In this document: positions 12,302-24,668 of the stretch, piece after piece
Position numbering within the stretch: position 1 is the first letter of the stretch
Layout: each line of letters starts with the position of its first letter
Assembly: GCA_001799195.1 (NCBI GenBank)
Contig: MGSU01000336.1
Span: forward strand, 1-24,668
From: Deltaproteobacteria bacterium RIFOXYA12_FULL_61_11
Lineage (GTDB): Bacteria; Bdellovibrionota_F; JAHFAK01; YA12-FULL-61-11
Reading direction: 5' to 3'
DNA: 24,668 nucleotides
The notes under the pieces: generated by a model
What the model saw: only the letters and a program-made list of their open reading frames with translations
Told to the model about the DNA's origin: nothing
The model's database searches: none
Position numbers and translations under genes: made by a program

Positions 12302-13375
12302 TCAGCCGACGAGCGAACCGCCAACTCCCAACAATCCACAGCATCGAGCGCAATGGGGAGGCAAGCCTTTGCGGAGGATGCGCCGGAAGGAGGAGAGAGC
12401 GTGAGAACGGAGCAGGGCAAAGAGCTCGACCCCTCTCACGTTCTCGACCAGCGGCGGCCCTTGTACGCAGAGATGGAGAGCACCGCTCGGGCGCAGTATG
12501 AGGCGGGAAGAGGCCAGCGCACAGGTGTAAGCCCCGAGTTCGAGTTCGTTCCGGAAGAACCTGCGGAGCTCCGACCTGCCGGCCAGGTCTGGGGTGAGAA
12601 ATATATACCGTTCGGAACGTCCTGCCCTGGCGAGGACGTCGCAAGCGCGGTTGAGGGTTCCTTCGTCGATCGGACGGTCGGCGCCCGGAACCGTCTCGGA
12701 CCTTCCCCCTTTTCCGAAATACCGGGCCGGGTTCTCGAGCAGGAAGTTGCCCAGGTCGAACCCCTGGCTTTCGAGCATCCTTGGTAGATACTCGACCTCG
12801 GCGAGGTTCTCGGGGGTGACGACATAGCGGAGGTTGAGGAGGGGAAACCGCAGACCGAACCGCTGTTTCCAGTACTGTAACCGCAGGAGCGCGGTCAGGG
12901 CTCGTGCATGAGCCCCGGACTGGCCCACGAGCCGATCATGCAGCTCCGGAGGGCCGTTGAGGGGGATCGAGATGATCTTCAATCCATTGCCGAGGACAGT
13001 GCGGGAGCCGAGACTGACCAAACGCCGGGCAGTCCGGTCGTCGAACAGGGTGCCGTTGGATTCGAGCGACAACCGGAACTCGTTCGCATAGTGTTCGAGC
13101 AAGGAGAAGCATTCCGGATGGAGGGCAGGTTCTCCTCCGGTGAAAGAAAGGACCGTCGAGCGCGGCACTTGGTCCAGCAAGCCGGCGAGGAGACCTCGAT
13201 CCAGGAAGACGCTCTTTTTCGGCGGACCGAGGAAACAGAAGCCGCACCGCTGATTGCACTGTTCGGTGAGAATGAGGGTGAGCTGGGAGAGGCGGAAGGG
13301 GACGAAGGGCAGGTGCCGATGAAGGCGAGCCCTGGCACTCTGGAGGGTGAAGGCTATTCGGAGCGGGAGGGACAT
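12302..13375 (-). CDS. Radical SAM protein with auxiliary-cluster-like C-terminus
   Basis: The 357-residue product has the cluster motif CxxxCxxC at C40, C44 and C47 (EQCNQRCGFC), then FTGGEPALHPE as the SAM-binding glycine-rich motif and a SLESNGTL strand. The C-terminus carries cysteines in YTC, LHLC and HCARCC contexts with a LRPSGALHLC segment resembling a SPASM or twitch domain. Such enzymes cleave SAM to a 5'-deoxyadenosyl radical; the substrate is not recognisable. The ATG at 13375 gives MSLPLRIAFTL; an upstream in-frame start exists but lacks support. It is tail-to-tail with glmM (8-base gap) and head-to-head with the glycosyltransferase gene, so it is probably its own transcription unit at the edge of the radical SAM region. 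Confidence 0.87.
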   Translation of the reverse strand: MSLPLRIAFTLQSARARLHRHLPFVPFRLSQLTLILTEQCNQRCGFCFLGPPKKSVFLDRGLLAGLLDQVPRSTVLSFTGGEPALHPECFSLLEHYANEFRLSLESNGTLFDDRTARRLVSLGSRTVLGNGLKIISIPLNGPPELHDRLVGQSGAHARALTALLRLQYWKQRFGLRFPLLNLRYVVTPENLAEVEYLPRMLESQGFDLGNFLLENPARYFGKGGRSETVPGADRPIDEGTLNRACDVLARAGRSERYIFLTPDLAGRSELRRFFRNELELGAYTCALASSRLILRPSGALHLCVQGPPLVENVRGVELFALLRSHALSSFRRILRKGLPPHCARCCGLLGVGGSLVG

Positions 13376-13639
13376 GATCCGGATCCATCGGGAACAACTC
13401 GCCTCCGACCGTAGCACGCCCAGGGGGAGCGGCCTAGTGAATCAGCTCACGCCACTCGGGGAGCGTCGGCGGCGGTCACCCCTAGAGGCAGTCGATCGGA
13501 GGCCGAGCCGATCATTGACAACGAGGGCCCGATCGACGAGCCTTGCAGCACCTCGTCGAGGCCTGAGCTCCTTGCCAAGGTCCTCGGCCTCCGTGGGGTC
13601 CGGTGCGGTCACCGGAAGGAACTCGCTCGTGGGCGTACG
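13376..13639. other. Intergenic region between divergent radical SAM and glycosyltransferase genes
   Basis: These 264 bases hold no gene I can support. A TTGACA hexamer occurs at 13515-13520 but no TATAAT-like sequence follows at 16-18 bases. The region must contain the promoters for both flanking genes, but I cannot place them. Confidence 0.4.
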
Positions 13640-15220
13640 ATGAACCCGCCGACCGGAACAAGCATGTCCCTGCATGGCTCGATCACCAGGAACGCGAACC
13701 TTGGGGTCTTCTTCGGCTACACGGCCATCCTCGTGCTCGCTCTGGCAATCAGGTTGCCGCTGTTGCGAGAGATGGGCGTTTGGTACGACGAGGTCTTCAG
13801 TCTGGTCATGTCCACGATGGACGGCGGGGAGGAGTACTTCAGGCTCCAGGCGGTCTACCATCTCTTCATGCGGGGCTGGGTCGCACTGTTCGGCTATTCA
13901 CCGATCGCGCTCAAGACCCCTTCGCTGTTGTTCGCGCTCCTGTCCTTCCCCTGCTTCATCGCGCTGACCCTGCAACTCACCGGCAGTCACCGTCACGCCG
14001 GCGTGGCCGCTCTCCTGTTGGCCTTGGCCTCCTTCCATATCTATCACAGTCAGGAGGCCCGTCCTTATACGCTGTTGATGCTGCTCTTCATCCTCTCCGC
14101 ATCCCTCACCGCGGTGCTCTTGAAGCGGCGCGAAACCCCGGTCGCCTTGACCGCGCTGGTCCTCGTCGATCTTCTCGCCCTGTTCACCCATCCCTACGGC
14201 CTCTTCCTCTTCGGCTTGCACGTACCGCTGCTTGTCCGTGCCGGACTACGGCCGAAATGGCCGTTCGGACTTATGATCCTGATCGTGGGCCTGTATTTCC
14301 TCATGGCTTTCGGGACCGAGCCTATCGAGCTCCAGGCGCAGGCCCGCTATCTCCGCCGCCCCCAACTCCTGGGTGATGTGTACAACCTCTGGGCCACGTT
14401 GAGCTATGGCGGCGATAGACCCTATAACAGCGGTCTGGGCTTCGAGTTGGACGAGCCCCTGCTGTTGCGCTGCAGGATCAGCGCCGGCATCCTCGGGACG
14501 ATGTTTCTGCTCGGCCTGGGGTTGACGCTCCTCGAAGCGCGGCGCTCTCGCTCACTGCTACCGCTGATCGCGCCTCTCTGGTGCATTGTTCCTCCGCTGG
14601 GCGCTCTGGTCTTCTCGACCCTCGTCTTCCCGGTATTCCTCCCCAGGTACTTCCTGGTCGTGCTGCCGCCGTTCCTCCTCTTGACGGTCACCGGGACACT
14701 CTTTCTCGCCGATCGCCTGCGTCTCCCGCTTCCGCTCATCGTCCTGGTGCTCGCCGGGCTGGCTTCGCCAGCTCTGTCCGCCGTCTTCGGTCTGACCACG
14801 GTGCAAGCCTGGCAAGCCATTGATACCAAGTTGCGGCAACAGGCGGGAGACCGCGCACTCCTCTTCTCCCCCGGGGTCCAATTCCTCAATCTCATTTACT
14901 ATCGCGACGCCCGCTTCCTGGTCGAGGACTTCCCCGGAGACCTGGAGGCCTATTTCGTCATGCTCTCCACGCACCAGGAAACTATGCTCAGTCTCTATCG
15001 CCCCGCTGAGCGCTCGCTCTGTTCCGCCAAAGACCTCGAGGCTTTCTCGACGAGCTGCGAGCTGAGAGGGGAAACGCTCTGGCTGGTGTTGCAGAAGGAA
15101 TGGCCCGGGAATGACACCTGGGCGGCGCTCATGCAGAACTTGGCCTGCGATCCTGAAGAGAAAGAGATATTCTTCCCCGATCCGGGGGTTACCTTGGTGC
15201 GCTGCCAAGCCGATTTCTAG
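13640..15220 (+). CDS. GT39/ArnT-like integral membrane glycosyltransferase
   Basis: The 526-residue protein has roughly ten or more hydrophobic helices. The first extracytoplasmic loop contains GVWYDE (D50, E51), the acidic pair expected in GT-C enzymes of the PMT/ArnT type, and HSQEARPYTL at 136-145 is a widely conserved PMT_2 motif, followed by FTHPYGLFLF. Enzymes of this type move a sugar from a polyprenyl-phosphate donor onto a lipid, protein or glycan on the outer face of the cytoplasmic membrane. The C-terminal 130 residues are a soluble domain of unknown role. The ATG at 13640 is chosen for length; an ATG at 13664 is preceded by a slightly better GGAACA site. Lying upstream of two radical SAM genes on the same strand, it suggests that the modified product is lipid-linked or glycosylated, which is an inference. 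Confidence 0.85.
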   Translation: MNPPTGTSMSLHGSITRNANLGVFFGYTAILVLALAIRLPLLREMGVWYDEVFSLVMSTMDGGEEYFRLQAVYHLFMRGWVALFGYSPIALKTPSLLFALLSFPCFIALTLQLTGSHRHAGVAALLLALASFHIYHSQEARPYTLLMLLFILSASLTAVLLKRRETPVALTALVLVDLLALFTHPYGLFLFGLHVPLLVRAGLRPKWPFGLMILIVGLYFLMAFGTEPIELQAQARYLRRPQLLGDVYNLWATLSYGGDRPYNSGLGFELDEPLLLRCRISAGILGTMFLLGLGLTLLEARRSRSLLPLIAPLWCIVPPLGALVFSTLVFPVFLPRYFLVVLPPFLLLTVTGTLFLADRLRLPLPLIVLVLAGLASPALSAVFGLTTVQAWQAIDTKLRQQAGDRALLFSPGVQFLNLIYYRDARFLVEDFPGDLEAYFVMLSTHQETMLSLYRPAERSLCSAKDLEAFSTSCELRGETLWLVLQKEWPGNDTWAALMQNLACDPEEKEIFFPDPGVTLVRCQADF

Positions 15221-15321: not shown

Positions 15322-16839
15322 ATGACTCGCGTTGCCTTGATCGCTCTCTACGGTCCTGAAAACATTGGACTGCGGACGCTCGCAGCTCACCTGCGCGGCC
15401 AGGGGCACGAGACCTCCCTGATCTTCTTCAAGCGTTGGGTGAACAACAATCTCCAGCCTCCGTCCCCCCGGGAGCTCGCCTTGCTCCGGGGAGTCTTGGC
15501 CGACCTCCGGCCCGGGCTGGTGGGCCTCTCCTTCACCTCACCGTTGCTCGAGTTGGCGAGAACGGTGACCCGGACGATCCGCACGTCGGTTACGGCCCCG
15601 ATCGTGTGGGGAGGGCTCCACGCCATTGCGCGGCCGAGGCAATGTCTCGCTTCCTGTGACTTTGTCTGCCGAGGAGAAGGAGAACGAACCCTCCTCGCCC
15701 TGGCCGACCATCTCGACGGGCACGGCTCGCTCGAGGATGTCCCCGGACTCGCGGCGCTACTCCACGGCCAACCGTTCGAAACCCCGCTCGCACCGCTCTG
15801 GCCCGACCTCGATACTCTCCCGTTCCCCCTCTATGCCCAGACAGAGATGTATTTCCTCGAGCACGATCGCCTCCGCGTGGGCGATCCGCTCCTCGCAACG
15901 CGGGAACTCCGGGTCCTGGCCTCTCGGGGATGCCCAGGAACCTGCGCCTATTGTTACAACAGCATGATGAAGCGCCTGTATCCAGCCAAGAGCTGGTTCA
16001 GGCACAAGAGTGTCCCGCGCTTGATCGCAGAGCTGGAGCACACCCTCGCCCAGCTACCGCGGGTTCGTCTCCTCAAATTCGACGACGACACGTTTGTCTT
16101 TCCCAAACCCTGGATCGAGGAGTTCTGTACCGCGTACCGTTCGGCCATCGGTCTACCCTTCGAGATCCTCTTCGATCCGAACAAGCACGTATTGCCTCGT
16201 ATGGCCGAGCTGCGGCAGGCTGGTTTGCGCCGGGTGCAGGTCGGGCTCCAGACCGGTTCCCCTCGGCGGGCCGAGCAGGAGTACGGCAGGATCTTGCGAC
16301 GGTCCAAGGTAGTAGCCTTCGCCGCGATGGCGAAGAAAGCGAAGCTGGAGGTGGTGTATGATCTCATCGTCGACGATCCCACGGCCGTCGCCGCGGACGG
16401 TCGAGCTCTGGTCGAGTTGTTATTGGACGTGCCCCGCCCCTTCGATCTGTTTGTATACTCCTTGAACTACTTTCCCGGCACGGCGCTGACGGAACGTTTG
16501 CTGGCCGAGGGTCTTTTAGAAGAGAGCCAGGTCGAGGGCAAGGCCCAGAAGGCCCTGCGCCAATTCCGCGTGACCTTCGATTGGCCGAGGCCCCCGGACC
16601 AGCAGGCGTTGGTCGCCTTGGTGTCCCTGACCTCCAAACGCTTCATACCCCGTGCTCTGTTGCGCGCCCTGGTGCACACCTCGTGGCCGTGTCGGCACCC
16701 CTTGTTGCTGCTGCGCTGCGCGGAAGTATCCAATAGTTTGAAACTGTGCTACATCGGCTTCAAAATGGCTCGGCAAGGTCACCTCTCCTGGGAAAAACTG
16801 AGGGAATACGGCCTCCGGGGGAGGATCTTGATCCAATGA
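15322..16839 (+). CDS. B12-binding-type radical SAM protein
   Basis: Residues 1-140 form a Rossmann-like B12-binding domain (VALIALYGP start, LVGLSFTSP, IVWGGLHA, FVCRGEGE). No DxHxxG motif is seen, as is common in class B enzymes. The radical SAM domain follows with cluster cysteines C204, C208 and C211 (RGCPGTCAYC), a LLKFDDDTF strand and LRRVQVGLQTGS. The 505-residue length is usual for class B radical SAM proteins, which include methyltransferases acting on unactivated carbons and ring-forming enzymes of the BchE/HpnR type. About 110 C-terminal residues form a basic, helical tail. The gene overlaps the next radical SAM gene by ATGA, implying coupled production of the pair. The substrate is unknown; co-location with a membrane glycosyltransferase and an acetyltransferase suggests a lipid or glycan-linked one. 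Confidence 0.92.
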   Translation: MTRVALIALYGPENIGLRTLAAHLRGQGHETSLIFFKRWVNNNLQPPSPRELALLRGVLADLRPGLVGLSFTSPLLELARTVTRTIRTSVTAPIVWGGLHAIARPRQCLASCDFVCRGEGERTLLALADHLDGHGSLEDVPGLAALLHGQPFETPLAPLWPDLDTLPFPLYAQTEMYFLEHDRLRVGDPLLATRELRVLASRGCPGTCAYCYNSMMKRLYPAKSWFRHKSVPRLIAELEHTLAQLPRVRLLKFDDDTFVFPKPWIEEFCTAYRSAIGLPFEILFDPNKHVLPRMAELRQAGLRRVQVGLQTGSPRRAEQEYGRILRRSKVVAFAAMAKKAKLEVVYDLIVDDPTAVAADGRALVELLLDVPRPFDLFVYSLNYFPGTALTERLLAEGLLEESQVEGKAQKALRQFRVTFDWPRPPDQQALVALVSLTSKRFIPRALLRALVHTSWPCRHPLLLLRCAEVSNSLKLCYIGFKMARQGHLSWEKLREYGLRGRILIQ

Positions 16840-18266
16840 AGATCGTGCTGGTGAATCCCCCGCTCGGACCCGCGGTGCGGCGCGGCATCGGTCCCTTGGC
16901 CAGGGCGCTCTTCACCAACAGTCCGCCCTTGGGCTTGTGCTCCCTGGCCGCGGTCTTGCTCGAACAGGGTGAGGAGGTCGTCATCCTCGATGCTGCCTTG
17001 GAGGGCTGGTCGATAGCGAACACGGCCGAGGCGCTCCGCCGCACCCACCCCGACCTCGTCGGCCTCACCTCGCTCAGTGCCTCTGCCTCCTCCACCTGGG
17101 CCCTCGCCCGGAGGGTCAAAGAACTCCTGCCGGGTACCCCCCTGGTTTTGGGCGGCCCCCACCTCACCGCGAACGCGGAGGAATTCGAGTTCCACCCCGA
17201 GGCAGACTATGTCGTCCTCGGTGAAGGCGAAACCACCCTCGCCGAGCTCGTGGCCGCCCTGAGTACAGGCCTCGATCTCGAGCAGGTCGAGGGCCTTCTC
17301 TTCCGCCGTGGGGAGAGGGTGATCCGCACCTCCCCGCGCGCCTTGCTCGAAGATCTCGACGCATTGCCCCTGCCCGCACGGCACCTGTTGCTGATGGAGC
17401 GCTATCTCCCGCAACCCAACGACCAGTACCGGCTGCCCAAGCTGAGCCTGATCACCAGCCGGGGCTGCCCTTATGGTTGCATCTTCTGCGACAAAGCGGT
17501 CTTCGGAAGGCGTTACCGAGCGCAAAGTCCGGCCCGGGTGCTGCGCGAACTCGAACACCTGGTGACGCACTACGGCGCTCGGGACATCGCCTTCCTGGAT
17601 TCCACCTTCACCGTGGACAGAACCCGGGTACTCGCTCTCTGCGAAGCCCTGTCGGCCAGAGGTTGGGACCTCTCTTGGACATGCACTGCCCGGGCCAATG
17701 CGCTCGACGAAGAACTCCTGAGCCGGATGAAGGCGGCCGGATGCTGGCGGGTCCGCATCGGCATCGAATCCGGGGATGACCGGATCTTGCGACGCATCGA
17801 CAAGGGGACTACCACCGCCCAGGTGCGTCGGGCCGTGAACCTGGCTGACAAGATGGGCTTACGGCCCAAGGGCTTCTTCATGCTCGGCCATGTGGGGGAA
17901 ACCTATGCCTCCCTTGCAAAGAGCATTGCCTTTGCGCTCGAGTTACCTCTCAGCGACGTCACGGTGCAGCTCAATACCCCGCTCAAAGGGACGCCCCAGT
18001 ATCCCCTGGCCTTGCGTTCGGGTACCCTGGTGACGGACTCGGAGCGCCCTCCGACCTTCTTCAACGCGACCTATGCCCCCGAGGGCATGACTCTGCGGGA
18101 CCTCGACCTGGCCTTACGCTTGTTCTACGTGCTCTTTTATGCGCGACCCAAGGTCTGGCGCAGGCAATTCGCCACTCTGCGTTCTTGGATGGATCTCGTG
18201 AAGGCCGCGCGCGGCTTGTCGATCCTGCGCTTCTTCTCGACCTCATGGCTGCGTCCGAACTCCTGA
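16836..18266 (+). CDS. B12-binding-type radical SAM protein
   Basis: The product has 476 residues from the ATG at 16836, which overlaps the preceding stop as ATGA and begins MKIVLVNPPLGP, the normal start of this class; a longer upstream frame would run back through the previous gene. The B12-binding domain (1-140) shows PPLGLCSLAAVLLEQG, LVLGGPHLT and YVVLGEGE. The radical SAM domain carries C211, C215 and C218 (RGCPYGCIFC), a DIAFLDSTFTVD strand and WRVRIGIESGDDRILR. No DxHxxG motif is visible. The family covers P-methylases, hopanoid and bacteriochlorophyll methylases and ring-forming enzymes. The reaction cannot be assigned. The 3' end overlaps the acetyltransferase gene by 22 bases. Confidence 0.93.
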   Translation: MKIVLVNPPLGPAVRRGIGPLARALFTNSPPLGLCSLAAVLLEQGEEVVILDAALEGWSIANTAEALRRTHPDLVGLTSLSASASSTWALARRVKELLPGTPLVLGGPHLTANAEEFEFHPEADYVVLGEGETTLAELVAALSTGLDLEQVEGLLFRRGERVIRTSPRALLEDLDALPLPARHLLLMERYLPQPNDQYRLPKLSLITSRGCPYGCIFCDKAVFGRRYRAQSPARVLRELEHLVTHYGARDIAFLDSTFTVDRTRVLALCEALSARGWDLSWTCTARANALDEELLSRMKAAGCWRVRIGIESGDDRILRRIDKGTTTAQVRRAVNLADKMGLRPKGFFMLGHVGETYASLAKSIAFALELPLSDVTVQLNTPLKGTPQYPLALRSGTLVTDSERPPTFFNATYAPEGMTLRDLDLALRLFYVLFYARPKVWRRQFATLRSWMDLVKAARGLSILRFFSTSWLRPNS

Positions 18267-18841
18267 TCAGGCCGGCTCGCCCGGCCGACGCCCAGGTCCT
18301 CGGCGACCTTTACACGCAACACCTGTACGCTTCTCACTTGGCCAAGCTCGGACCGCGTTTCGTGCGAGCCCTGCTGACCCGCTTGCTGAACGTGCCTACG
18401 GTGTATGGGTTGGTTGCCGAGGACGAGCAGGTGCGGGGCTTCATCGTGGCTGCCGCGCTCGGAGCTTTCTCGCCGACAGGCCTTGCTCTCTCCACAACCG
18501 TGGGATCGGCTTGGTTCCGGGCTTTATGGCGCCGACCAGGACCTACCCTCCGCAGCCTCGAATTGCTGCTACCGCGCCGAGAAGCTCGGCCCCAGGGTGC
18601 GGGGGTGGAATTGCTGTTCATCGCCCTCGAGCCTCGCTATCGCGCCGCGGGCCTGGGCCAGCGGCTCACCGCCGAACTCCTCGGCCATTTCCAATCCGAG
18701 GGAACGAGGTGGTTCGAGGTTTCCACCCAGGCGGACAACCTCGCGGTCCATGCACTGCTGCAAGCCTTCGGCTTCAGGGTGGTTCGGGACTACCGACTCT
18801 TCGGTCGGACCATGTGGCGCTGGCGCAAGCTGGTCGGCTGA
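18245..18841 (+). CDS. GNAT-family N-acetyltransferase
   Basis: The 198-residue protein starts ELLIRPARPADAQVLGDLY and has the acetyl-CoA-binding motif A as FIALEPRYRAAGLGQRL (125-141), then VSTQADNLAVHALLQAFGFRVV, the usual end of a GNAT fold. It presumably transfers an acyl group from CoA to an amine or sugar amine; the acceptor is unknown. An inserted, basic segment (about 78-115) is longer than in minimal GNATs. The ATG at 18245 lies 22 bases inside the preceding gene and has no good ribosome-binding site, so translation is probably coupled. It ends two bases from the end of the convergent radical SAM gene. It is the last gene of the rightward arm and may decorate the product of the preceding enzymes. 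Confidence 0.85.
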   Translation: MAASELLIRPARPADAQVLGDLYTQHLYASHLAKLGPRFVRALLTRLLNVPTVYGLVAEDEQVRGFIVAAALGAFSPTGLALSTTVGSAWFRALWRRPGPTLRSLELLLPRREARPQGAGVELLFIALEPRYRAAGLGQRLTAELLGHFQSEGTRWFEVSTQADNLAVHALLQAFGFRVVRDYRLFGRTMWRWRKLVG

Positions 18842-18843
18842 GG

Positions 18844-20250
18844 TCACCCACGCACCACCAACTCTCGCAGGGCGAGTAGCCGTTGCGGCAAAGCCCGATA
18901 GTTCTCGGGACGCAGGAGCGCGGTCGCGAGGTACCCCGGGCGGAGATAGAAGCGGCGATTGGCCTGCCGGCGCATGGCCTCGAGTCGGGACCGGTCGAAC
19001 CATTCCGGCCAGTACGGAGGGAGGAAGTCCTGCCGCGGCGAGCGTGCGAAGCGCCTCCAGTGTTCGGGATCGAGCAGACCGCGTTCGACCGCCCGGTCGT
19101 GCAAGCGGGAGCCTGGGTAGAGCACGAGCACGTTGAAGAGAGCATAGTCGGGCCTGAGGGCAAGGGCAAACTTCACCGTGGCCGCGAGATCGGCTGGGGT
19201 GCGGTCCGTGGGACAGCCCAGGAGAAAATACCCGACCGTTCGCACGCGGTGCTGCCTGGCCAGGGCAAAGGTTCGGCGTATCGCGGCGAGTTCGATCCCC
19301 TTGCCGAGGCTGGCCAGCGCCTGTTTGCTCGAGGCCTCCACGCCGAAATGGATGCGAACGCAACCGGCCCTTCGCAGGAGTTCGAAGTGGCGATCCTCGA
19401 GTTGGCCCACCCGGCCCCGGAAGCTCCAGCGGAGGCGCAGGTGCTCGTCCAGCAGAGCCGTGCAGAAATCTGTTACGAAGCCGGGATCGGCATTGAAGGT
19501 GTCATCGAGGAAGTGAAACTCATCATAACCTGCATCGCGGCAGTGGCGGAGCTCGGCGAGCAGGGAGGCTATCGAGCGCCTGCGATAGGGGCCTCGCGGG
19601 GTGCTGCAGAACGTGCAGTGATAGGGACATCCCCGGCTGGCCAGGAGGGTCGTCGGTCGGCGGCCCCGAGCCAGCAGCATCGAATAGGACGCGGAGGGAA
19701 GCAGGTCACGGCTGGGGAAGGGCAGGTCATCGAGGTTCTCGACCGGCCGACCGACCAGTCTGCGCTCCCCCGGCGTACGCGGGCGCTGCCGGGGCTCATC
19801 GGCAAGGAGCATTCGTACCAAGTCGACGAGGACCTGTTCCCCCTCTCCCTCGACCACGTAGTCCACGCCGGGGAGTTGCAAGGTCTCTTCCGGGAAATGG
19901 GTGACATGGGGTCCCCCTAGACAACAAGGCAGTCTAGGGTGGAGAGTTCGTAAGGCCCGAGCAAGAGAGGCTGCGGCGACCAGGTTGGAGGTGAGCACGC
20001 TCAGCCCGACCAGATCGGCTCTCTCTCGGGTGATTGCCTCGAGAGTGCCCACTTCATCGAGTCCTTCCGCCGGCGCATCGAGCAGCCGGAGCCGGCAACC
20101 GACCTCGCGGCGGAGGGCGGCCGCCAGGTAGAGCAACCCCAGGGGGGGCATCAGGCCCTCGTGGCGGGGTACGGCAGTGGAAAGTTCGCTTTGTACCAGG
20201 CCGGTGGCCGGGGGATTGACCAGGACCACGGTGAAGTCTTCGTTCCTCAC
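18844..20250 (-). CDS. B12-binding-type radical SAM protein
   Basis: From the GTG at 20250, which overlaps the preceding stop as GTGA, the product has 468 residues and begins VRNEDFTVVLVNPPATG. The longer in-frame extension upstream reads through the previous gene and is rejected. The B12-binding domain has PPLGLLYLAAALRREVG, LGGPHVTHFP and YVVEGEGE. Cluster cysteines are C208, C212 and C215 (RGCPYHCTFC), followed by EFHFLDDTFNADP and CVRIHFGVEASSKQAL. It lacks an obvious DxHxxG. It is the last gene of the leftward arm and is convergent with the acetyltransferase. It is the third B12-type enzyme in five kilobases and resembles the two on the opposite arm in overall architecture, so all three may act on related intermediates. 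Confidence 0.93.
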   Translation of the reverse strand: MRNEDFTVVLVNPPATGLVQSELSTAVPRHEGLMPPLGLLYLAAALRREVGCRLRLLDAPAEGLDEVGTLEAITRERADLVGLSVLTSNLVAAASLARALRTLHPRLPCCLGGPHVTHFPEETLQLPGVDYVVEGEGEQVLVDLVRMLLADEPRQRPRTPGERRLVGRPVENLDDLPFPSRDLLPSASYSMLLARGRRPTTLLASRGCPYHCTFCSTPRGPYRRRSIASLLAELRHCRDAGYDEFHFLDDTFNADPGFVTDFCTALLDEHLRLRWSFRGRVGQLEDRHFELLRRAGCVRIHFGVEASSKQALASLGKGIELAAIRRTFALARQHRVRTVGYFLLGCPTDRTPADLAATVKFALALRPDYALFNVLVLYPGSRLHDRAVERGLLDPEHWRRFARSPRQDFLPPYWPEWFDRSRLEAMRRQANRRFYLRPGYLATALLRPENYRALPQRLLALRELVVRG

Positions 20251-21266
20251 GCCCGTCCCCTTGCCGTGCGGTGCTGCCGCCAGAGCAGCGCGGCTTCGAG
20301 CAGACTCCGGGGATCGCTGAAGGCCAAGGACACTTCGGTCCAACAGGGCCGGAGACAACCCGGACAGAGAGGCCGAGACGTCACGGGACGCCAGGGGGTG
20401 AACTCGTGCGTACCGGAGGAGAGCCAGCCTGCGCTGAGGGGCAAACCATGGCAGGGGGCTATTCCCCCCGAAGGATCTACCGAGACGTAGAACCTGCCAG
20501 CATGACAGGGCCAGGGGGCGTGCAGGCCGAGCAGGCGCAAACGCAGCAACCGGAGATAGGCCGAGCTGTTGAAGAGAGCGTTGCCGCGCCGGCGTTTCAG
20601 GGAAAGGAGACGGTGGAAGGTCGACTCGAGTTCTGAGCGGTTCTCGGGCCCGAAGTGCCAAGCATCCGCAAGCCTACCCTCGAGAGCAAGGAAGGAGATC
20701 CTCGCTCCGAGCGAGTGGGCATAGTCGTGCAAGGTACCGACCTCGCGCAGGTTGAGCCTGGACAGGACACAGTTGAGCACGACCAGACCACCCTCGAATC
20801 GAACGGCTCGGGCCAACCTGCTCACATTGGCGAGCACCGTGGGCAACATTCCTCGAGTACCGCAGATGCGATCGTAGAGCTCGGGCTCGAGGGTGTCGAG
20901 GGAGATGGAGAAATCGCGCACCCCGGTTCGCAACAATCCCGCGAGCCGGGCTTCGTCGAGCAGGCTACCATTGCTGAGCAGTCGGACCCGGTACCCGAGA
21001 CCGGCAAGGCCTTCCAGCACCTCGGGCAGGTCCTCTCGCACCAGGGGCTCTCCCCCTCCGACGCTGAGGAAGCGGCCCCCCAGGTCACGCAGGTGTTTGA
21101 AAAGGATGAGTATCCTGTCGAGACCGAGTTCCTCCCCAGGTGTTTGCTCGCGGATCGTGCACATGGCGCAGCGCAGGTTGCAGCGATGGGTGAGGCCATA
21201 GTGCGCGTAGATCGGACGGTCCTTCCACAGTACTTGCCGCAGCAAGGTCAGCAGCGCTCTCGGCAC
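20247..21266 (-). CDS. Radical SAM protein with SPASM-like domain
   Basis: The 339-residue product has cluster cysteines C29, C33 and C36 (HRCNLRCAMC), SVGGGEPLVREDL and LLSNGSLLD and SISLDTLEPELYD, the standard core of PqqE/MoaA-like enzymes. The C-terminus has CHAGRFYVSVDPSGGIAPC and CPGCLRPC, the pattern of a SPASM domain holding auxiliary [4Fe-4S] clusters. The GTG at 21266 is chosen because AGGAGG (21272-21277) lies five bases upstream; a GTG three bases earlier is too close. It follows the U32 pair by 11 bases and overlaps the B12-type gene by GTGA. SPASM enzymes usually modify peptides or alcohol groups; no precursor peptide gene is present in the window, so the substrate is open. Confidence 0.92.
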   Translation of the reverse strand: MPRALLTLLRQVLWKDRPIYAHYGLTHRCNLRCAMCTIREQTPGEELGLDRILILFKHLRDLGGRFLSVGGGEPLVREDLPEVLEGLAGLGYRVRLLSNGSLLDEARLAGLLRTGVRDFSISLDTLEPELYDRICGTRGMLPTVLANVSRLARAVRFEGGLVVLNCVLSRLNLREVGTLHDYAHSLGARISFLALEGRLADAWHFGPENRSELESTFHRLLSLKRRRGNALFNSSAYLRLLRLRLLGLHAPWPCHAGRFYVSVDPSGGIAPCHGLPLSAGWLSSGTHEFTPWRPVTSRPLCPGCLRPCWTEVSLAFSDPRSLLEAALLWRQHRTARGRA

Positions 21267-21271
21267 CACGT

Positions 21272-21277
21272 CCTCCT
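21272..21277 (-). promoter_or_regulatory. Strong ribosome-binding site of the SPASM radical SAM gene
   Basis: AGGAGG read leftward directly follows the stop of the second U32 gene. It decides the GTG start at 21266 and marks the only junction of the leftward arm that is not a stop/start overlap. Confidence 0.7.
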
Positions 21278-22057
21278 TCAGATCGGCGGTTCGGGTTGAT
21301 GAACCAGCCGGTCGATCCCGAGCGCCTCGAGTTCTTCCGGCAGTTCGCGATGCTCGACGAACTGGGTATTGCCCCGGAGCAGGAGTGGGCGGGGCATGGT
21401 CCTGTGGCGCAATGCGAAGAGGTGGTTCCGACAGACCTCGCCGCAGGGGCCGATGGAGCGGTAGCCTGTCGAGCGTTTCTCGCCATACAGGCTCCTGCAC
21501 AGCCGCGTGGTCGTGACATAGCAGTACGGATAGTAGAGCGAAGCGGGCAGGGCTCCGGGAGGCCGGGCAATACCCTGGAGGAGGTTATCGAGTTCGATCC
21601 TGCCCACGCCGAGCGCGTCGAGGAGGGCGCGTTGGTGAGGAGCATCGGCACCGGCCATGCGGAAGTGCCGGAACGCGGTGGGAGGAAGCACGAGGTCGAG
21701 AATGCGGGGTCCGCGCTTCTGCCGACACAACAAGCGCCCGAGCGCGAGGTGGAGGGAGCGACCGCTCAACCGATGGAGCAGTCCCCAGTCGTTGATCACG
21801 ACCTCGAAGGCTAAGCCCCGCAAAGCGAGAGCGTCGACGAGGGCTTCGGCCGCGGGCAAACCGGCATCGGTGAGGAAGGGCGTGACGAGGGTGAAGGCTA
21901 GGCCCGAGGCCTGGGCGGCGGCCGCGAGTTCCAAGACTCTGGCCGGTCTCGGCAAGAGCCGTTCGCAGAATTCGATGCCGCAATAGAGGCGATCATAACC
22001 GTCCGGAAGGGGGTCGGGAATGGCCCGGGTCGGCAGGAACAGGGCGTGTTCCATCAT
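21278..22057 (-). CDS. U32-family protein, UbiV-like
   Basis: The 259-residue product has the short U32 form: YDRLYCG near the N-terminus, a FEVVINDWGLLHRL strand-loop, then LALGRLLCRQKRGPRI. Cysteines C26 or C31, C179 or C187, C205 and C209 fall where UbiV of E. coli, as I recall it (C39, C180, C193, C197), binds its [4Fe-4S] cluster; the CxxxC pair C205/C209 matches exactly in spacing. UbiV works only with a U32 partner, UbiU, to hydroxylate ubiquinone precursors without oxygen. The partner-like gene is immediately upstream and overlaps it by four bases (ATGATG with the stop TGA), which supports a heterodimer. The ATG at 22057 or the next codon is the start. The role as oxygen-independent hydroxylase subunit is an inference; the U32 assignment is moderate because sequence similarity is remote. 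Confidence 0.7.
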   Translation of the reverse strand: MMEHALFLPTRAIPDPLPDGYDRLYCGIEFCERLLPRPARVLELAAAAQASGLAFTLVTPFLTDAGLPAAEALVDALALRGLAFEVVINDWGLLHRLSGRSLHLALGRLLCRQKRGPRILDLVLPPTAFRHFRMAGADAPHQRALLDALGVGRIELDNLLQGIARPPGALPASLYYPYCYVTTTRLCRSLYGEKRSTGYRSIGPCGEVCRNHLFALRHRTMPRPLLLRGNTQFVEHRELPEELEALGIDRLVHQPEPPI

Positions 22058-23121
22058 TTGGCCTCGTCCGAGTAGTAGCAGAGTTCGGCACAAGCGTAGC
22101 CGTAGAGGCGCCTGAATTCTTGCCGGGCCATGGCGCGAAAATCAGTGACCATGTCCGTGGAAAGCGCGTCCAGCAATCCCCGCAGGAACACGACATCCCG
22201 ATGTTTTTTTGCCGTGGGGTGGTTCCGACCCACGATCTTCACTCCGTGCAACCCACCGGCGAGGAGTTCGGGGAGTCGGCAGGCGGCGCAGGGATCCACG
22301 GCCGCGAGCAAGGAAAAGGAGTCCTTCACGTTCTTGGCAAGGCACCGCGATTGTTTGGTAGACGGCTGGGTCAGGTCGGTCACCTGGTACGAGAGATGAC
22401 AGGCGCTGTCCATCGGCAGTCGGCCGGCTCTGACCTTCCGGGCCAGGGATTTTGGCACGTACCGCAACCCATCGAGCAAGAGCCCGTCCAGGCCCAGGCG
22501 TTTGGGCACCTTCCACAGTGGACCGTGGCGCAGTTCGCTCACGCCGTGCTGGAAGGTACAAAACCCGTCGATGTTCTTGCAACCGCTGTTGAGGACAAAG
22601 GCCTCGAATTCGAGGTCGGGGTGTGCCGCGATGATCGCGGTCATCTCTTCGATGCGCAATTGCCGGGGTAACACGATGCGGGCTGCTCCGAAACTGCGGT
22701 AGAAAGCCACGGTCGCACGGTTGAAGGTGGTGCCGCCGGTGCTGATGTGCAGGCGAACAGCAGGGTAACGTTCGTGGAGGGTACGGATGAGCCCGGGGTC
22801 CGCGACGATCAAGGCGTCGACCTCGAGGGCGAGTGCTTGTTCGACTTGTTCCAGCACCAGGGGATACTGTTCCTCGGTGTAAAAGGCGTTGAGCGCGAGG
22901 TGTATCACCGCACCGTGCGCATGGGTCCGTGCGACGACCCGGCCGAGTTGTTCGACGTCGTCCAGGTTGGCTGCGCGCCATTCGCGGCGGTTGCAGGAGG
23001 CAAGGTTGGTGAAGCGGGAACGCCACGCCTGCGATAATACCCCGCAGTACAGTTCGTCGGCACCGGCCTCGAGCAGGAGGTCGACCTCGTTCGGATGATT
23101 GCATGGGGCCAGGATCTTCAT
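22054..23121 (-). CDS. U32-family protein, UbiU-like
   Basis: The 355-residue protein begins MKILAPCNHPNEVDLLLEAG and ADELYCGV, the classical N-terminus of U32 proteins, followed by LHISTGGTTFN and GAARIVLPRQLRIEE. Candidate cluster ligands are C181 and C188 in NSGCKNIDGFC, C241 in SACHLS and C278 or C281 in DPCAAC; spacing is close to UbiU (C169, C176, C193, C232, from memory), with identical spacing of the first pair. U32 proteins include tRNA and rRNA hydroxylases (TrhP, RlhA) and the UbiU/UbiV pair; the old name peptidase is probably misleading. It starts by ATGA overlap with the upstream tetraether-synthase-like gene and ends by overlap with the second U32 gene. A subunit of an oxygen-independent hydroxylase is the best guess; the substrate is unknown. 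Upstream in-frame extension is spurious. Confidence 0.88.
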   Translation of the reverse strand: MKILAPCNHPNEVDLLLEAGADELYCGVLSQAWRSRFTNLASCNRREWRAANLDDVEQLGRVVARTHAHGAVIHLALNAFYTEEQYPLVLEQVEQALALEVDALIVADPGLIRTLHERYPAVRLHISTGGTTFNRATVAFYRSFGAARIVLPRQLRIEEMTAIIAAHPDLEFEAFVLNSGCKNIDGFCTFQHGVSELRHGPLWKVPKRLGLDGLLLDGLRYVPKSLARKVRAGRLPMDSACHLSYQVTDLTQPSTKQSRCLAKNVKDSFSLLAAVDPCAACRLPELLAGGLHGVKIVGRNHPTAKKHRDVVFLRGLLDALSTDMVTDFRAMARQEFRRLYGYACAELCYYSDEAK

Positions 23122-24449
23122 CGAGGCCCCCCGCTGAGCACGACGTCGCGCACCACGTTGTCGAGGGCACCACAGCTCTGCACCCCCAGTTCCTTGGAAA
23201 TGGCCCCCTTGCCGCAGTTCTGGGCCACGGCCTCGTCGTAGATTAGACCATCGCATGCGGAGATGAAGCCGATCAGCAGTGGCCGGGCGGGTAAGCGCGC
23301 CAGATCGAACCCCCGGGCGAAGGGGAGCACGAAGGATCCCAATTCCCAGGCCAGCGAGGGGGTCACGGTCTTCCCCAGGATGCGGGCGGCCGCAAGGAGG
23401 AGGGTGGCCCGGGCTTGGGGTTTCCCGGCTTCGACGTGCGACCGGTAGCGATCCAACACCGGCTCCAGGGCTGCCAGCGGAAAAGCTTTGGCCAGGGGTA
23501 CCAGAGTCCCGCGGTCCCTCAGGAACAAGTAATGCTGTATATAGAAGCACTTGCGAATCTTGAACAAGGACAACAGGGTGAAATAGAGTTTTTGGAAGCG
23601 CCGCAGATCCGCACGCTCGAGCAGCCCGAGGGTGTGTTCCTCCACCAGGTCGATGACCTCGTCCGGAGTGAGGCAACGTTCGAGCGCTTGGGCTTTGGCG
23701 CGACCGAGGAAACGGCACCCCAGGAAAAAGACCTCTTTGACGAAGGGGTGGGTGGCGGCGAAATCCAGGATCGGAGCTATCTGGTCTTCGTTGACCCCGC
23801 GAGCCAGGGTGACGACAAGGTCGACGGAGAAACCCAAGCGCTCGAGGTTGGCCAGGGTCCGCACTTTCTCCGCCGCATAATCCCCGCCGCGCAGGCATCG
23901 GTTGACGCGGTCGTCGAAACCATCGAACTGGAGATGAACCTCGCGCAGACCTGCTCGCCGCAAGGTGCGGCAGTAAGCGGGATCGGCGAGCCGTATGCCG
24001 TTGGTATGAAGAGCTGCAAGGTTCCCGGAGCGGAGGATCCGCCGGATGAGCTCCGGGAGATCCGCTCGGGTCGTGGGTTCGGCGCCCATGAGATCGATTT
24101 TGCAACCGCGTTTCCCACGCAGGAAACCCAGCAGGTCCTCAGTCGGATAGTCCTCGGTGTGGCGCTGCCCGGCCTCGGCCAGGCAGATCGGACAAGCCAT
24201 GTTGCAGCGATCGGTCAGGTGGACGATGAAGTCTTTCTGGGGATAGGAACCCCTATTGAGGGCGAAGTAGAACCTGCGCAGCGGGAGGAAGTAGTCGGGG
24301 TGGCGGGACAGGAGGGCTGTGGTGGTCCCGTGCTCGGCGCAGTGCTTTTCCAGCAGCACGTTTCCCTCGCGTACCAGCAGGTGGGCCTCGATGCGGCGGA
24401 GGCATCGAGGGCAGAGACTGGCCGTGGAGAGATCCTTGGGGGAGTTCAT
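23118..24449 (-). CDS. COG1964-type radical SAM protein, tetraether-synthase (Tes)-like
   Basis: The 443-residue protein has an N-terminal metal-binding knuckle (C13, C16, C37 and H40 in a CPRC...KHCAEHG pattern) followed by the radical SAM cluster C82, C86 and C89 (DRCNMACPIC), a LMGAEPTTRADLPE glycine-rich motif, HTNGIRLAD and LQFDGFDD. This arrangement and these motifs are those of COG1964, the family of archaeal tetraether lipid synthase, which joins lipid tails by carbon-carbon bond formation, and its bacterial relatives. The C-terminus has cysteines in SACDG, AQNCG and QSCG contexts and differs from archaeal Tes as I know it, so the substrate may differ too. The ATG at 24449 overlaps the upstream stop as ATGA. 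It precedes the U32 pair in the operon. The family call is solid; a lipid substrate is an inference. Confidence 0.87.
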   Translation of the reverse strand: MNSPKDLSTASLCPRCLRRIEAHLLVREGNVLLEKHCAEHGTTTALLSRHPDYFLPLRRFYFALNRGSYPQKDFIVHLTDRCNMACPICLAEAGQRHTEDYPTEDLLGFLRGKRGCKIDLMGAEPTTRADLPELIRRILRSGNLAALHTNGIRLADPAYCRTLRRAGLREVHLQFDGFDDRVNRCLRGGDYAAEKVRTLANLERLGFSVDLVVTLARGVNEDQIAPILDFAATHPFVKEVFFLGCRFLGRAKAQALERCLTPDEVIDLVEEHTLGLLERADLRRFQKLYFTLLSLFKIRKCFYIQHYLFLRDRGTLVPLAKAFPLAALEPVLDRYRSHVEAGKPQARATLLLAAARILGKTVTPSLAWELGSFVLPFARGFDLARLPARPLLIGFISACDGLIYDEAVAQNCGKGAISKELGVQSCGALDNVVRDVVLSGGPR

Positions 24450-24668
24450 CGACGCCTCGTGCTGGTGAAGGCCTCCAACCATTCGAGGATGGTGCCGAGG
24501 TGCAGGGAAAACAAGAGGTTGTATTCAGTGAAACACGCGGCCAAGCAGGCTTGGCAGCCTTGGCGCGAGGTGGAACGGAGAGCCTGATCCAGACCGACCC
24601 GGCGGTAGTCGGCGGCCGGGACCTGGCCGATCAACAGGGAGCAGGGATAGACCCGTCCGTCGGTGTCG
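24446..24668 (-). CDS. C-terminal part of a SPASM-type radical SAM protein, 5' end beyond the window
   Basis: The visible 73 residues start with TDGRVYPCSLLIG and continue to GCQACLAACFTEYNLLFS. This is the end of a SPASM domain: a strand with a cysteine after GRVYP, then a CxxCxxxC cluster, followed by a hydrophobic, arginine-ending tail. The rest of the gene, including any CxxxCxxC motif, lies to the right of the window, so calling it radical SAM is by domain association. The stop overlaps the next gene's start as ATGA, showing that the leftward operon extends beyond the right edge. Confidence 0.7.
   Translation of the reverse strand, partial: DTDGRVYPCSLLIGQVPAADYRRVGLDQALRSTSRQGCQACLAACFTEYNLLFSLHLGTILEWLEAFTSTRRR

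Follow-up and report, generated by a model that had tools for sequence, protein, structure and literature searches.

The ligand motifs of the tetraether synthase Tes (GDGT-MAS, MJ0619; PDB 7tol) are a radical SAM CX3CX2C and a rubredoxin-type CX2CX20CX2H (PMC9433317). The UbiU-UbiV pair of E. coli (YhbU-YhbV), a hydroxylase that works independently of O2, is encoded by two adjacent U32-type genes; UbiU has the cysteine motif CX6CX16CX38C and UbiV the motif CXnCX12CX3C (PMC6747719), and U32 hydroxylases have been reported to require prephenate (PMC11574389). Omnitrophota MAGs with ladderane-like clusters are noted in PMC9902471, which also mentions radical SAM tailoring genes as a feature of clusters in general, and PMC11868695 reports Mss and ElbD homologues in Omnitrophota; the gene set described below was not found in the accessible parts of either paper. 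The sequence-only reading of this locus had not recognised its combination of genes as a described system and took it for a candidate undescribed one, and no description was found in the literature searched.

Gene content and extent of the locus

The window, by which we mean the entire 24,668-nucleotide stretch of DNA analysed, carries at 18844-24668 six leftward genes on the minus strand. In order of transcription these are the C-terminal part of SPASM1, a radical SAM protein (24446-24667), a COG1964 or Tes-like radical SAM enzyme (23118-24449), the UbiU-like U32 protein U32a (22054-23121), its UbiV-like partner U32b (21278-22057), the SPASM radical SAM enzyme SPASM2 (20247-21266) and the B12-binding radical SAM enzyme B12_C (18844-20250). 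The genes are joined by ATGA overlaps at 24446-24449, 23118-23121 and 22054-22057 and by a GTGA overlap at 20247-20250; U32b and SPASM2 are separated by 11 bases if the second GTG of SPASM2 is the start and by 8 if the first is used. An AGGAGG ribosome-binding site (21272-21277, minus strand) lies 5 bases before the second GTG. The arrangement first read from the letters, in which four junctions are 4-base overlaps and the fifth is an 11-base gap preceded by a strong ribosome-binding site, is thus present in full. Four-base overlaps by themselves are ordinary in bacterial operons; to find the same gene order, and several of the same overlaps, in other phyla goes beyond chance. Nothing notable was seen among repeats in the region.

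Pfam places radical SAM domains in the COG1964 protein (PF04055, with PF23545), SPASM2 (PF04055, E 3e-21) and B12_C (PF04055, with the B12-binding PF02310), Zn_ribbon_HMPTM on the COG1964 protein, and PF01136 in U32a (E 4e-33). A CX3CX2C motif is present in every radical SAM protein of the set, and the translated end of SPASM1 contains a CxACxxSCFTEYN motif common to its orthologues. The family calls made earlier proved right.

The right edge of the window is a 49-N scaffold gap, not the end of the operon, and the contig (C336) runs on to 38128. Inspection of the sequence beyond the edge, as had been suggested, revealed the remainder of SPASM1, a flavoenzyme gene and a DegT gene; genes there were called as longest open frames, so that their start sites are approximate. 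The full SPASM1 gene reaches about 25357, across the gap, and overlaps the stop of the flavoenzyme gene (about 25354-26853) via ATGA. The operon therefore includes at least flavoenzyme-SPASM1-COG1964-U32a-U32b-SPASM2-B12_C. The PDB proteins nearest to the flavoenzyme family profile are UDP-galactopyranose mutases, and the NCBIfam entries nearest to the protein itself are PRK07208-type proteins. Beyond it on the same contig lies a divergent DegT/DnrJ/EryC1 aminotransferase gene (26863-28059).

Convergent to the operon, the plus strand encodes the B12-binding radical SAM enzymes B12_A (15322-16839; PF02310 and PF04055; orthologues in other clusters at E 1e-124 to 1e-147) and B12_B (16836-18266; PF02310 and PF04055; E 1e-129 to 1e-150) and a GNAT acyltransferase (open frame 18185-18841, start probably near 18245; PF00583), which adjoins B12_B in other clusters too. 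In one genome (G497) the trio B12_A-B12_B-GNAT follows U32b and is the same trio as on the plus strand of the window. Because orthologues of these genes (15322-18841) recur in the clusters of other genomes, they are part of the same system. A GT39-like membrane protein (13640-15220, plus strand) is a probable member; it is weakly homologous to a protein of the L081 cluster (E 3e-28), and that copy matches PMT_2 (PF13231). The six-gene extent originally drawn was consequently too small: on the left the system reaches 15322 and probably 13640, on the right it passes the window edge, and it includes the flavoenzyme, DegT, B12_A, B12_B, GNAT and probably GT39-like genes in addition to the six.

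A further radical SAM gene (12302-13417, minus strand; PF04055, E 3e-14) adjoins the cluster and had no strong orthologue in the other clusters compared. It and another minus-strand radical SAM gene at 1-972, for which a moderate homologue is present in the L089 cluster, lie around a housekeeping stretch whose translations read as tilS, ftsH, cdaA, ybbR and glmM.

Recurrence of the gene set in distant phyla

A U32b profile (A1) searched over 84,980 species genomes yielded loci in which the whole set recurs, and further cluster genomes came from searches of Omnitrophota, of the phylum of the Elusimicrobia record and of the phylum of G193. The block flavoenzyme-SPASM1-COG1964-U32a-U32b, together with SPASM2, three B12 radical SAM enzymes, GNAT and DegT, recurs in at least 11 other genomes with its genes in order or close together (L081/G192, L082/G193, L089/G196, L084/G195, L083/G194, G818, G473, G419, G513, G429 and G497). 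The synteny search called for by the initial reading has accordingly produced a block common to 12 genomes, including that of the window, and ATGA overlaps recur in the clusters of other genomes. Besides the organism's own phylum, those bearing the cluster are Omnitrophota, Elusimicrobiota, Lentisphaerae and one further phylum, that of G193 and G196 (n = 6 genomes); every cluster genome that has a named record is a metagenome assembly. G193 and G196 have the order flavoenzyme-(DegT)-SPASM1-COG1964-U32a-U32b-(B12_D)-B12_B-GNAT-SPASM2-B12_C-B12_A, G513 has flavoenzyme-IorA-IorB-SPASM1-COG1964-U32a-U32b-SPASM2-B12_C-like, and the Elusimicrobiota genome G818 has flavoenzyme-SPASM1-U32a-U32b-B12_A-B12_B-GNAT-SPASM2 with COG1964 further on. 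Cluster-type U32b is on a separate contig in G473 and G429 and was not found in G419. Gene complement varies, with IorAB, PEMT-like, AKR and GT2 genes in some clusters only.

Orthologues of COG1964, B12_A and B12_B are found at E 1e-100 or better in most cluster genomes, those of B12_C at E 1e-106 to 1e-113 and those of SPASM2 at E 1e-49 to 1e-68. A COG1964 orthologue with E below 1e-178 is present in six of 384 Omnitrophota genomes, each of which has U32a directly downstream of it. The cluster is rare: in a broad sample of 386 genomes the COG1964 marker was detected in the organism's own genome and in one of the 385 others, G1050, where the close orthologue (C10:488205-489518; L242, L243; E 3e-177) is accompanied by none of the cluster partners. 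The second genome sampled from the organism's own phylum (n = 2) yielded no U32a and no U32b. A cluster present in distant phyla yet nearly absent from most of the genomes sampled is what either horizontal spread or repeated loss would leave.

In phylogenetic trees, all 12 cluster sequences of U32a lie on one side of a single branch (SH-aLRT 86), as do all 11 of U32b (SH-aLRT 91); shuffling gave means of 11.5 and 10.6 changes, respectively, and none of 500 shuffles matched. The cluster U32a and cluster U32b sequences thus each form one clade, with moderate support values. Dozens of other bacteria and archaea also have U32a and U32b side by side, next to unrelated genes in those inspected. The pair is therefore a portable module, widespread and stand-alone, that was recruited into the cluster and is not peculiar to it. 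Such pairs among L081-L160 (e.g., L087, L101, L116, L136) include those of Bathyarchaeota, Helarchaeota, Woesearchaeota and Undinarchaeales. At several Thermodesulfobacteriota and deltaproteobacterial loci (L088, L093, L096, L097, L114, L115, L118 and L119), U32b occurs with no recognisable U32a nearby, and at L077 (7782-9161), L139, L140 and L142 it has a C-terminal extension resembling a SAM methyltransferase and a B12 radical SAM gene adjoins the U32 pair.

Other arrangements of COG1964 genes were also encountered. Five Omnitrophota loci (L204-L207 and L210) are large clusters in which between one and five COG1964 paralogues accompany DegT aminotransferases and a run of several B12_A-like radical SAM genes, with no U32 gene in the stretch read; they represent a second, distinct type of radical SAM cluster. 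The organism's own genome has, within 144-4723 of contig C298 (L071), a second COG1964 gene, 34% identical to that of the window and followed by a B12 radical SAM gene; opposite it is a large open frame resembling a membrane protein. A COG1964-B12_A-B12_B triad with no U32 gene (L072; G120:C131, 6721-11012), whose COG1964 protein is 35% identical to the window's, is a more distant relative of the cluster.

The Tes-like enzyme and the U32 pair

The COG1964 protein matches Tes (7tol) over most of its length (E 3e-37 as a single sequence, 7e-62 as a profile), and 7tol and 7tom are the first Foldseek matches to its AlphaFold model, which is poor (pLDDT 67). It shares with Tes the fold, the domain order and both ligand motifs: C81-C85-C88 (CX3CX2C) and C12-C15-C36-H39 (rubredoxin-type) are invariant in five orthologues. 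It differs from Tes in being shorter (443 aa) and in lying within a cluster of U32, B12 and SPASM genes. The ligands of the N-terminal auxiliary [4Fe-4S] cluster of Tes are C73, C77 and C80; no cysteine occurs between residues 41 and 80 of the COG1964 protein. Three further cysteines, C300, C398 and C411, are invariant in the five orthologues, with an uncertain register relative to Tes and low pLDDT in that region, and a C-terminal auxiliary FeS site is likely. The COG1964 protein is a Tes relative that lacks the cysteines of the N-terminal auxiliary cluster. Its best NCBIfam score is to the TrsS radical SAM (seleno)protein model NF045646 (186.6 bits; cut-off 490). HpnJ, BchE and the ladderane model TIGR04072 have the same B12-binding plus radical SAM architecture as B12_B and B12_C and are among the best of the weak models for them, with all scores far below cut-offs.

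U32a aligns with E. coli UbiU by hhalign (99.7%, E 1e-25) and is a UbiU homologue over the U32 domain; it scores 105.9 bits against the NCBIfam UbiU model NF047963, below the 440-bit cut-off. It retains CX6C (C181, C188), followed by C278 and C281, and the full UbiU spacing is absent, the set ending in CX2C plus a terminal CYY rather than in CX16CX38C. In U32b, the invariant cysteines C30, C186, C204 and C208 form a UbiV-type arrangement with X17 instead of X12; the hhalign match to E. coli UbiV is weak (E 0.015) and aligns C30 with C39. No Pfam match was obtained for any of the 12 U32b members tested, nor an NCBIfam match for the window copy, and PDB sequence searches with U32a or the U32b profile returned no relatives. 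The U32b AlphaFold model (pLDDT 86) has 5d88 as its only PDB Foldseek match below E 1e-3; in the VIA ranking 5d88 scores Z 12.7, with CutC nearly tied at 12.1. The model is a confident TIM barrel of the U32 type, and U32b, whose cysteines follow the UbiV order C, C, CX3C, is a UbiV-like partner. The two adjacent U32-type genes resemble the UbiU-UbiV pair, but no ubiquinone context was seen around the cluster pair. Prephenate dehydratase was found in 8 of 10 cluster genomes; it was not found in the organism's own genome (87% complete) or in G193.

A proposed pathway and its alternatives

The gene-for-gene recurrence in at least 11 genomes of several distant phyla very probably reflects one unstudied pathway, and the tightly packed set of genes for oxygen-sensitive enzymes would very probably build a complex molecule without oxygen; that the genes act in one joint pathway, as the sequence-only reading surmised, is strongly supported by synteny in the 12 genomes. 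It is rather probable that the six genes lie at the heart of a conserved gene cluster for O2-independent biosynthesis; the synteny is observed, the chemistry and product we infer. Anaerobic operation we infer from the enzyme families, and each reaction is assigned by family, with sequence, synteny and folds behind the chemistry. The Tes-like enzyme would join or functionalise unactivated carbons of a hydrophobic substrate via its putative C-terminal auxiliary FeS site, B12_A, B12_B and B12_C would perform radical methylation or cyclisation of carbons, and the SPASM enzymes would catalyse additional radical oxidations. U32a and U32b may pair as a heterodimer of the UbiU-UbiV kind, in which each subunit has one [4Fe-4S] cluster, and would add hydroxyl groups without O2, probably with prephenate. 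The UGM-like flavoenzyme, DegT, GNAT and GT39/GT2 proteins may make a sugar, an amino sugar or another, and attach it. As a guess at the product, a glycosylated and lipid-like compound of the envelope, or a specialised metabolite, is most likely: kinship with Tes suggests a hydrophobic chain, and sugar enzymes are encoded nearby.

That the Tes-like enzyme instead couples fatty or isoprenoid chains into a membrane-spanning or cross-linked lipid, with B12 enzymes adding rings or methyls as in GDGT synthesis, is rather unlikely. The relation of the COG1964 protein to Tes, with rubredoxin-type and C-terminal cysteines, is consistent with such a pathway, as are the ICMT/PEMT-like methyltransferases of some clusters and the Tes and Mss homologues of many anaerobic bacterial MAGs (PMC11868695, which reports no activity for bacterial Tes). 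However, the COG1964 protein scores far under the cut-off of the NCBIfam Tes model NF045702 (147.6 versus 450 bits), it has no cysteines for the N-terminal auxiliary cluster, and the neighbouring genes that could be recognised encode sugar enzymes, not enzymes of the lipid core. A distinctly poorer prospect is an anaerobic quinone or aromatic cofactor pathway in which the UbiUV-like pair hydroxylates an aromatic ring and IorAB handles an aryl pyruvate. U32a is related to UbiU, IorA in the G473 cluster exceeds the TIGR03336 cut-off, and IorAB lies next to the block in three genomes of Omnitrophota and one of Woesearchaeota; no IorAB was seen in other clusters, however, and no prenyltransferase or UbiT-like gene was recognised among the cluster genes examined.

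Another reading is a surface-polysaccharide locus of the ordinary kind, where enzymes sensitive to oxygen have gathered but do not serve one pathway. GT39, GT2, DegT and UGM-like enzymes are typical of such loci, and variable gene content at the cluster edges agrees with this reading; the same orthologues in the same order in several phyla, and the single clade of each cluster U32 protein, make this very improbable. Peptides are common substrates of SPASM and B12 radical SAM enzymes, and RiPP maturases are among the nearest NCBIfam models, none of which comes close to its cut-off. Maturation of a precursor peptide encoded elsewhere nevertheless seems highly improbable: no gap inside the window's operon exceeds 11 bases, so no precursor peptide is encoded there, and sugar enzymes and U32 hydroxylases are atypical of RiPP pathways. 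A defence system (viperin/pVip or other) was also considered and rejected; PADLOC gave no specific match and weak generic matches of at most 51 bits.

Returning to the glycosylated, lipid-like product, we tentatively suggest that it may represent a new natural-product class or membrane glycolipid. Its synthesis would need no O2 at any step and would be encoded by a cluster that distant uncultured phyla have in common, in which Tes-type sp3 C-C coupling is combined with several steps by B12 radical SAM enzymes and with a divergent hydroxylase of the UbiUV type. For uncultured phyla, the locus provides a defined and syntenic set of genes for functionalising C-H bonds anaerobically and for hydroxylating without O2, and U32b is a U32 partner family missed by Pfam and widespread in bacteria and archaea. 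The action of UbiUV-type hydroxylases on substrates beyond quinones and RNA, and the role of bacterial Tes relatives, are now testable.
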